Assembly: GCF_000013565.1 (NCBI RefSeq)
Contig: NC_007802.1
Location: forward strand, 2,480,001 to 2,544,000
Length of the DNA stretch: 64,000 nt
From: Jannaschia sp. CCS1
GTDB lineage: Bacteria > Pseudomonadota > Alphaproteobacteria > Rhodobacterales > Rhodobacteraceae
Reading direction: 5' to 3'
Positions 20,394 to 25,436 of the stretch are shown here, one piece after another. The notes beneath the pieces were generated by a model. It was not told where the DNA came from. It ran no database searches and saw nothing but the letters and a program-made list of their open reading frames with translations. The position numbers were made by a program, and so were the translations under genes. Numbering within the stretch: the stretch's first letter is position 1; each line of letters begins with the position of its first letter.

Positions 20394-20415
20394 GAGTTTT
20401 TCTGCCCTTTCGCGT

Positions 20416-20508
20416 CGCTCCTTGAGCAGCGGATCTTTCTATGTGCTATCGCTTCGCTCCTTGAGCACCAGATCTTTCTATGTGCTATCGCTTCGCTGCT
20501 TGAGCACG
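20416..20508. repeat. 39-bp tandem direct repeat, about 2.4 copies
   Basis: Copies run 20416-20454, 20455-20493 and a partial 20494-20508. The first two differ at two positions. Each unit contains GATCTTTCTATGTGCTATCG and CTTGAGCA, and GTGCT/AGCAC can pair within it. It lies between the scaffold gene stop and the minus-strand terminator. The period is 13 codons, but it is not inside a credible gene. Confidence 0.85.
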
Positions 20509-20511
20509 GAC

Positions 20512-20551
20512 AAAAAAACCGCCGCACATCCCGGACAGGAGATGGCGGCGG
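20512..20551 (-). terminator. Strong terminator of the small SOS-type gene
   Basis: On the minus strand CCGCCGCCATC pairs with GATGTGCGGCGG (one bulge) and is followed by seven T. It lies about 120 bp beyond the stop of the small gene at 20672-20803 and marks the end of that transcript. Confidence 0.85.
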
Positions 20552-20671
20552 AGTAATGCGTATCCGTGACGTCCCGAGGCAGGGGACAATGGGCCGAGGC
20601 AAATCATGTTTGAGCCGGGACAAGTGGCGCAAACGAAACCCGTGGATCGCAGGCAGAACTGAGAAAAGACG

Positions 20672-20803
20672 TTAGATCATGCCGGGCAAATGCAGCAATG
20701 CGACCGTCATAACCACCAAAGCAACAACACCACCCAAGTCATACATCAGCGTGTCACGCGAGCGGGCGAGGATCTGAGTGGCTTGGGCAATCATGGCGGT
20801 CAT
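20672..20803 (-). CDS. 43-aa single-pass membrane protein under a LexA-type box
   Basis: The peptide is MTAMIAQATQILARSRDTLM followed by YDLGGVVALVVMTVALLHLP and GMI. Residues 1-20 form a polar amphipathic segment and 23-43 one membrane helix ending at the C-terminus. Met4 (20794) is an alternative start with ACAGGA 8 bp upstream, giving 40 residues. Evidence that it is real: a sensible hydrophobic profile, codons like the neighbours, an AT-rich promoter region with a GTTC-N7-GTTC box, and a strong terminator downstream. It lies after recG and ligA on the same strand. The design recalls small SOS-induced membrane division inhibitors such as SidA of Caulobacter, but I see no sequence match. 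The function is inferred. Confidence 0.65.
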   Translation of the reverse strand: MTAMIAQATQILARSRDTLMYDLGGVVALVVMTVALLHLPGMI

Positions 20804-20862
20804 CCTGTCTTGGTTAACGTCTTTGTTGCACCTTTGTTCTCATATATAGATAAGATTGTAAA

Positions 20863-20887
20863 GAACTTTTTGAGAACATTTGAGAAC
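20863..20887 (-). promoter_or_regulatory. Putative LexA (SOS) operator
   Basis: On the minus strand GTTC (20874-20877), seven bases and GTTC (20863-20866) form the direct repeat known as the alphaproteobacterial LexA box. A further GTTC (20884-20887) is six bases upstream, making a TTTGAGAACA tandem on the plus strand. TATATA at 20843-20848 just downstream is a likely -10. The small membrane-protein gene begins 60 bp downstream. Confidence 0.6.
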
Positions 20888-20917
20888 AAACAGCGTTTTG
20901 TTCCCGGTACGGTCCTT

Positions 20918-25436
<4,519 letters not shown>

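Follow-up and report, generated by a model that had tools for sequence, protein, structure and literature searches.

Among the described systems, DinR of Klebsiella pneumoniae stands closest to the locus analysed here: it is a 3'-end sRNA from the LexA-controlled dinI mRNA that represses ftsZ, and, in the accessible sections of the report, further sRNAs under direct LexA control are said to be lacking (PMC10907235). On the protein side, the nearest precedent is SidA of Caulobacter, described as a 29-aa SOS-induced inner-membrane division inhibitor that acts on FtsW (PMC4211646); YneA of B. subtilis and SosA of S. aureus are likewise described as SOS-induced division inhibitors, and YneA as interacting with FtsW. 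Within the Rhodobacteraceae, 3'-UTR-derived sRNAs are reported from Rhodobacter sphaeroides, namely CcsR1-4 from the ccaF1 mRNA (PMC8625941), SorX and UdsC (PMC8625941, PMC9779115). As far as its accessible part goes, a comparative study of LexA regulons, with R. sphaeroides and Paracoccus among the organisms covered, indicates that recG is apparently LexA-regulated in some alphaproteobacteria (PMC3323433), while the accessible part of a report listing predicted LexA sites for D. shibae does not name the locus considered here (PMC6473078). The open-access literature, covered mostly through abstracts, yielded neither a description of the peptide or the RNA presented below nor an account of division arrest after DNA damage in the Rhodobacteraceae.

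The window, that is the whole stretch of 64,000 nucleotides of Jannaschia sp. CCS1 DNA that was analysed, carries recG on its minus strand (20918..23020). An initial annotation of the sequence had pointed to an unannotated small membrane protein of 40-43 aa with one C-terminal helix beside this gene, and the 43-codon minus-strand frame (20803 to 20672) is indeed present; recG precedes it immediately and is read in the same direction. The RecG protein is 86% identical to that of its closest named counterparts, which belong to the genus Roseicyclus. The longer, 43-aa reading of this frame is not favoured; judging by the alignment of homologues and by the Shine-Dalgarno spacing, translation more probably starts at the inner ATG (20794), from which the ORF (MIAQATQILARSRDTLMYDLGGVVALVVMTVALLHLPGMI; 20672..20794, minus strand) would encode 40 aa followed by a stop codon, with an amphipathic N-half and a C-terminal membrane helix. 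At E <= 1, a search with the single peptide sequence gave matches in 29 of 61 relatives, one of them (L027) due to chance. The set of homologues used below comprises 134 loci, obtained from 138 after removal of L027, a chance hit without a match, and of three duplicates. Exactly 40 aa, counted from the aligned ATG, are found in 119 of the 134 homologues; an ATG was present in all 134, as read by a start-picking script that prefers ATG over other start codons.

For sequences of the genus, the small-ORF frame gives a pN/pS of 0.25 and the other five frames give values between 0.45 and 2.96; a 19-residue window with a Kyte-Doolittle value above 1.6 occurs in 133 of the 134 peptides. The N-half has a hydrophobic moment of 0.39 (0.25 after shuffling), and AlphaFold2, run on the single sequence, predicts one continuous helix spanning residues 2-39 with a mean pLDDT of 93. 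At a cut-off of E <= 0.05, a profile (HMM) of the peptide matches 354 of 394 family genomes. It also matches four of 140 genomes from other families of the class at noise level (E 0.027-0.035), and some of the weakest matches within the family may therefore be false. No match to the peptide was obtained in Pfam or NCBIfam. On these comparative grounds, the small ORF is a real gene for a predicted single-helix membrane peptide of 40 aa, as the initial annotation had proposed in substance, and a SidA-like inhibition of cell division by this peptide may be regarded as its candidate function.

Peptides of quite another kind are induced by the SOS response as well; TisB is one that is membrane-active. 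The Jannaschia peptide could in principle belong with these, depolarising the membrane and arresting growth, while the RNA described below would control its translation. Its predicted SOS control, its small hydrophobic character and its amphipathic N-half fit such a role, and DinQ, an SOS peptide with a single span, is described as toxic and as being accompanied by antisense RNAs (PMC3567139). We nevertheless regard this possibility as quite improbable: the peptide is near-universal in the family, most genomes possess a single match each at a fixed locus, and searches of plasmid and phage sequences gave no match, so that a plasmid- or phage-borne element was rejected. Furthermore, the conserved RNA is a 3' RNA on the sense strand and not an antisense RNA directed against a toxin mRNA, as would define a type I toxin-antitoxin system. 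The residues D19 and G22 are invariant in all 119 full-length members, which suggests a specific partner of the peptide.

The initial annotation had proposed joint conservation of frame and upstream box as a test of its reading, and the outcome is clear: the putative LexA box GTTC-N7-GTTC (GTTCTCAAAAAGTTC, GTTC-TCAAAAA-GTTC; 20863..20877, minus strand) is exact in 133 of the 134 homologous loci. A third GTTC, which had also been noticed, lies nearby (20884-20887, minus strand), spaced upstream of the box by N6 rather than N7, a spacing kept in 117 of 133 loci; the sole locus without an exact box has three GTTC at N6 spacing. The box is directly followed by a -35-like TTTACA (20857..20862, minus strand; TTTACA in 95 of 133 loci), and 17 nt after this hexamer comes the element GAAC-N7-CAAC (GAACAAAGGTGCAAC; 20825..20839, minus strand), which had escaped the initial annotation. 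The 17-nt spacing, followed by GAACAAA, is present in 110 of 133 loci, and the second half-site reads CAAC in 109, TAAC in eight and a perfect GAAC in three of the 133. In two diverged loci (L190 and L194) the site was read by eye as a perfect GAAC-N7-GAAC. We read GAAC-N7-CAAC as a putative degenerate second LexA site, which would lie across the -10 region and the transcription start. The -10 hexamer would then be GAACAA, lacking a T at position -7, a base described as missing from more than 60% of the mapped alphaproteobacterial sigma-70 promoters (PMC8407463). A scan for E. coli-type sigma-70 promoters returned no canonical promoter for the unit and no sigma-70-like site near the RNA; as the scan misses the unit's main promoter too, the RNA may still have a promoter within the ORF. 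In the diverged locus L190 (1500-2500), the recG stop codon is immediately followed by a run of four GTTC half-sites, with a perfect second box GAAC-N7-GAAC downstream of them.

The string GTTC-N7-GTTC carries no weight by itself and was rejected as evidence on its own, as it occurs at control level in the genome (95 copies, compared with 109 for a reversed-pattern control) and once in the window, where 1.9 copies are expected. It is by its conservation, which goes far beyond chance across the aligned loci, and not by its rarity that the box is recognised as real. The same pattern is found upstream of lexA, recA, uvrA and uvrB in the Jannaschia genome (gene identities were read from the translated products), and in the family as a whole 23 of the 24 recA leaders that could be read contain GAAC-N7-GAAC; these occurrences support the use of GTTC-N7-GTTC by the LexA protein of the family. 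Control of the unit by LexA is hence likely. A different regulator might be considered, given that the spacer of the box is unusually fixed across the homologues (TCAAAAA and close variants) and differs from the spacers at the lexA and recA boxes. This alternative appears very improbable indeed, as the half-sites and the N7 spacing are identical to those of the lexA, recA, uvrA and uvrB boxes, and as the box is present in reversed form in two diverged loci. Moreover, the one genome whose recA leader is devoid of the box (L352, G020) possesses neither a LexA match nor the peptide. Some further sites of the pattern were seen in the Jannaschia genome: its lexA promoter (L105, 998-1023) carries two overlapping GTTC-N7-GTTC boxes made of three half-sites in 11-bp steps, and of the sites at L092, L093 and L097, two lie upstream of genes that resemble, by eye, radical-SAM DNA-repair proteins, while that at L097 precedes a resolvase-like gene.

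A part of the unit that had been missed is found downstream of the ORF. A hairpin followed by T7, which the initial annotation had correctly recognised as the end of the transcript, is located at 20512-20551 (stem CCGCCGCC..GGCGG at 20519..20551, minus strand, and T7 at 20512-20518), and its stem is 96.5% paired over 98 sequences. This terminator is shared between the mRNA and a conserved structured RNA (20512..20656, minus strand) that starts shortly after the stop codon and is matched by a covariance model with 54.7 bits (E 3.4e-12). The layout of the RNA comprises a single-stranded CUGCCUG, a closing stem of long range, a set of inner hairpins, and the terminator; CUGYCY recurs in loops and linkers. 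Motif statistics were taken from the 111 of the 134 loci in which a terminator was recognised. In these, the RNA body holds on average 3.4 copies of CTGYCY (0.40 in shuffled sequences), whose positions are 73% unpaired in minimum-energy folds, compared with 40% elsewhere, and the reverse complement of the motif occurs in only two of the 111 bodies. In a sample consisting of every third of these sequences (37), the closing long-range helix forms in all 37, compared with 68% of 185 shuffles, and the mean folding energy is -71.7 kcal/mol as opposed to -65.3 kcal/mol after shuffling. The stem of the hairpin around GTCC differs in sequence between loci and keeps its pairing in most of the 97 sequences with a CTGCC-like start.

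Automated alignment with MAFFT followed by RNAalifold did not recover the long stem; from the alignments of 111 and of 98 rows, RNAalifold alone gave nothing beyond the terminator, and from 30 rows it gave the terminator plus one hairpin. A hand-drawn structure, and then a covariance model built on it from seven seed sequences, were therefore used. The model matches 98 of 99 sources, the seven seeds included, and 30 of 30 further sources; it matches none of 28 controls and none of five family loci without the ORF, and three of nine diverged loci at E <= 0.002. In the Jannaschia genome it gave a single match at E <= 0.01 among the 19 of 1207 first-look candidates that were scored. In the 98-row alignment, 93.0% of the cells are paired (73.8% shuffled), both partners have changed in 35 of the 39 base pairs, the cells with such double changes number 574 (149 shuffled), and the covariation score amounts to 0.345 (0.111 shuffled, at most 0.058 in slid controls); these counts rest on the hand-drawn model and on an alignment fitted to it. 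Two weak matches from other families were discarded, one (L246) consisting only of a GC-rich hairpin without CUGYCY and the other (L247, E 0.005) having no box. Rfam contained nothing at gathering level for the region of the window (best E 0.69), and the best match from six further loci, with E 0.084, also stayed below that level. Judged by this strong covariation, the segment between the stop codon and the T7 terminator appears to be a conserved structured RNA that has no Rfam entry. Pairing of the RNA with the Shine-Dalgarno region of its own unit was rejected, since GGACAG occurs in one, GGCAG in none and ACAGG in 16 of the 134 leaders. Imperfect tandem repeats with units of about 42 nt, containing CGCTTCGCTCCTTGAGCA and AGATCTTTCTATGTGCTAT, were seen by eye at 20400-20515, between the end of a convergent gene (20393) and the terminator.

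The leader of ftsZ was chosen in advance, as the only candidate target of the RNA, because of the Klebsiella DinR precedent. Directly before the ftsZ start codon stands ACAGGCGGACAG or a near variant of it. CAGGCGG is present within 45 nt of this start in all 40 RNA-bearing family genomes, one of which (G013) has only a weak RNA match of 26 bits, and GGACAG in 28 of them, while neither is found in ten genomes of other families. CAGGCGG pairs with the CUGCCUG of the RNA, including one G-U pair, and GGACAG is a perfect match to CUGUCC; CTGCCTG or CCGCCTG occurs in 99, and CTGTCC in 92, of the 111 RNAs. For these counts, five of 29 new loci were set aside, four without the RNA and one diverged (L400). 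Both elements are missing before the ftsZ start in the three readable family genomes without the RNA (the start was not found in the fourth, L386), and they are missing from L400 as well. A wider window of 110 nt, which includes coding bases, yields GGACAG in 32 of 40 genomes; among the loci without the RNA it yields CAGGCGG in two of four, inside the coding sequence (L386) and further upstream (L387). In control leaders of 110 nt, CAGGCGG occurs in one of 23 for recA and in two of 134 for the small ORF. The ftsZ leader of Jannaschia itself (near 2767164, L366) has a non-canonical ribosome-binding region, ACAGGCGGACA, with the core CAGGCGG.

The predicted duplex of the RNA with the ftsZ leader has a mean energy of -14.0 kcal/mol, compared with -9.2 kcal/mol for the leader of the unit itself, and is the stronger one in 23 of 24 cases with one tie, the own-leader window being shorter (53 vs 65 nt). 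It is only modestly better than the duplex with shuffled ftsZ leaders (mean z -1.1, negative in 21 of 24). It should be noted that CAGGCGG-N4-14-ATG occurs at 329 sites in the Jannaschia genome, compared with 59 for the reversed pattern. Hence, CAGGCGG is not specific by itself, its conservation may partly reflect its place in a ribosome-binding site, and other targets of the RNA are possible. The frequency of this element before ATG, the several identical motifs in each RNA, and the CcsR precedent from Rhodobacter would all fit an sRNA with many targets, or a sponge for a CUGYC-recognising RNA-binding protein, with ftsZ being one target of many or an incidental match. We consider such a role improbable, and slightly more so than that of a TisB-like toxin, as ftsZ was the first and only candidate, chosen beforehand, and it matched in 40 of 40 genomes. 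As it stands, ftsZ is a putative target of the RNA with good comparative support; it is not a result.

The conserved ftsZ complement also bears on a further reading of the locus, in which the peptide alone would be the checkpoint, as a single-span division inhibitor of the SidA or YneA type, and the 3' RNA simply a stable 3' UTR, there to shield the mRNA or to adjust its expression. The conserved LexA box, the one membrane helix, the purifying selection on the frame and the precedent of SidA are all in line with it. A plain stabiliser, however, would need neither unpaired CUGYCY repeats nor a conserved complement before ftsZ, and because both have been kept, this reading is disfavoured; we regard it as unlikely, though it deserves to be taken seriously.

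RecG C-termini are encoded upstream of the small ORF in 133 of the 134 loci, with a median distance of 116 nt from the recG stop codon to the ORF's ATG. A sample of 80 loci out of 405 was selected by the similarity of RecG to the Jannaschia locus, without use of the peptide; the box and a DxxG ORF are present in 78 of these 80, and the RNA in 70 of the 72 that were searched for it, the other eight being taken as repeats of genomes already searched. In the two exceptions (L253 and L260), box, ORF and RNA are all missing together. Twenty of the 40 genomes without a profile match were examined as well, and recG was found in 14 of them. Nine of these 14 flanks have a hydrophobic-looking ORF of 36 to 43 aa behind recG, with seven GTTC-N7-GTTC boxes and two that were read by eye as reversed GAAC-N7-GAAC (L201, L202). 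The remaining five have no ORF behind recG; two of them have no LexA match either (G203, G020), and three possess LexA with both peptide and RNA missing after recG (G145, G090, G029). Of the other combinations, a peptide without a LexA match is found in G069 (74% complete), and both are present in eight of the 14 genomes. Three family genomes that are at least 97% complete (G203, G065, G095, of which only G203 gave recG) have neither a LexA match nor a peptide profile match, and they possibly represent lineages that lost the SOS repressor. In recG 3' flanks from other alphaproteobacterial families, the box is found in none of 28, and hydrophobic frames of greater length (56-73 aa) are present in three of these, likewise with no box. 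Given the joint presence and absence in the RecG-selected loci and the lack of the box in the 28 loci of other families, the unit appears to be family-specific as far as searched and to behave as one inherited block.

We propose that the locus is an SOS division checkpoint, a LexA-repressed unit whose single mRNA would give rise to both a peptide and an RNA; in our estimation, the case for this stands at about an even chance. In the undamaged cell, LexA would cover the -35 region by binding GTTC-N7-GTTC and would probably bind the degenerate GAAC-N7-CAAC over the -10/start region as well. DNA damage would lead to the cleavage of LexA and to the synthesis of a transcript of about 0.3 kb, whose 5' part would be translated into the 40-aa single-span inner-membrane peptide, and whose 3' part, from after the stop codon to the terminator, would form the multi-branched RNA whose loops and linkers present CUGCCUG and CUGUCC. 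This RNA, perhaps freed by RNase E cleavage like other Rhodobacter 3'-UTR sRNAs as described in the accessible part of PMC8625941, would probably act as a 3'-UTR-derived sRNA that reduces the synthesis of FtsZ by pairing with CAGGCGG(ACAG) at the ribosome-binding site of ftsZ. The peptide would act on the assembled divisome in the manner of SidA or YneA, and together the two products would hold back division until repair. The initial annotation, which had interpreted the locus as a possible SidA-like checkpoint peptide, thus stands with regard to the conserved gene and the alphaproteobacterial LexA box; its account was incomplete, as the 3' half of the unit had gone unnoticed, and so had the fact that the RNA is complementary to the ftsZ leader.

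Viewed against the known systems, the unit shares with DinR the LexA-driven mRNA of a small protein (with LexA control being predicted here), the terminator-bearing 3' RNA and, as we infer for the Rhodobacteraceae, the ftsZ ribosome-binding site as target. It differs in that DinR is described as being cut from inside the dinI coding sequence, whereas the Rhodobacteraceae RNA begins after the stop codon; in that the ftsZ-pairing stretch of DinR is described as Klebsiella-specific, whereas the RNA considered here is conserved across the family with a multi-branched fold; and in that DinI is described as modulating RecA filaments, whereas the protein here is a predicted membrane peptide. Like SidA, the peptide is alphaproteobacterial, tiny, and predicted to be membrane-borne and LexA-controlled, but it has 40 aa instead of 29 (a comparison by description); no such unit stands behind recG in the 28 loci of other families, and no RNA part is described in the accessible part of the SidA report (PMC4211646). 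YneA and SosA are SOS-induced division inhibitors, as proposed for the peptide, but they come from Gram-positive bacteria and were compared by description. The RNA resembles CcsR1-4, SorX and UdsC in being a putative 3'-UTR sRNA of the Rhodobacteraceae, and CcsR and UdsC are described as following small or hypothetical ORFs, as does the RNA studied here (PMC8625941, PMC9779115). UdsC, an RNA of 67 nt, is described as RpoHII-dependent, unlike the predicted LexA control of the unit, and neither recG nor LexA occurs in the main texts of PMC8625941 and PMC9779115; UdsC was therefore set aside as the same RNA, and its identity with the Jannaschia locus is unlikely.

The fullest version of our proposal would have one SOS transcript block division on two levels simultaneously, through a peptide on the divisome and through a multi-loop antisense RNA against ftsZ translation, the unit being inherited beside recG throughout the family and including a class of structured RNA not represented in Rfam; we consider this possible, although we place it a little short of an even chance. 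The Rhodobacteraceae are an abundant marine and phototrophic family, and for most of its members the locus provides a single testable candidate for damage-induced division arrest. The unit would offer a conserved case of a protein and a regulatory RNA produced from one SOS mRNA, and its RNA part would add a structured RNA that is spread through the family and that Rfam lacks.
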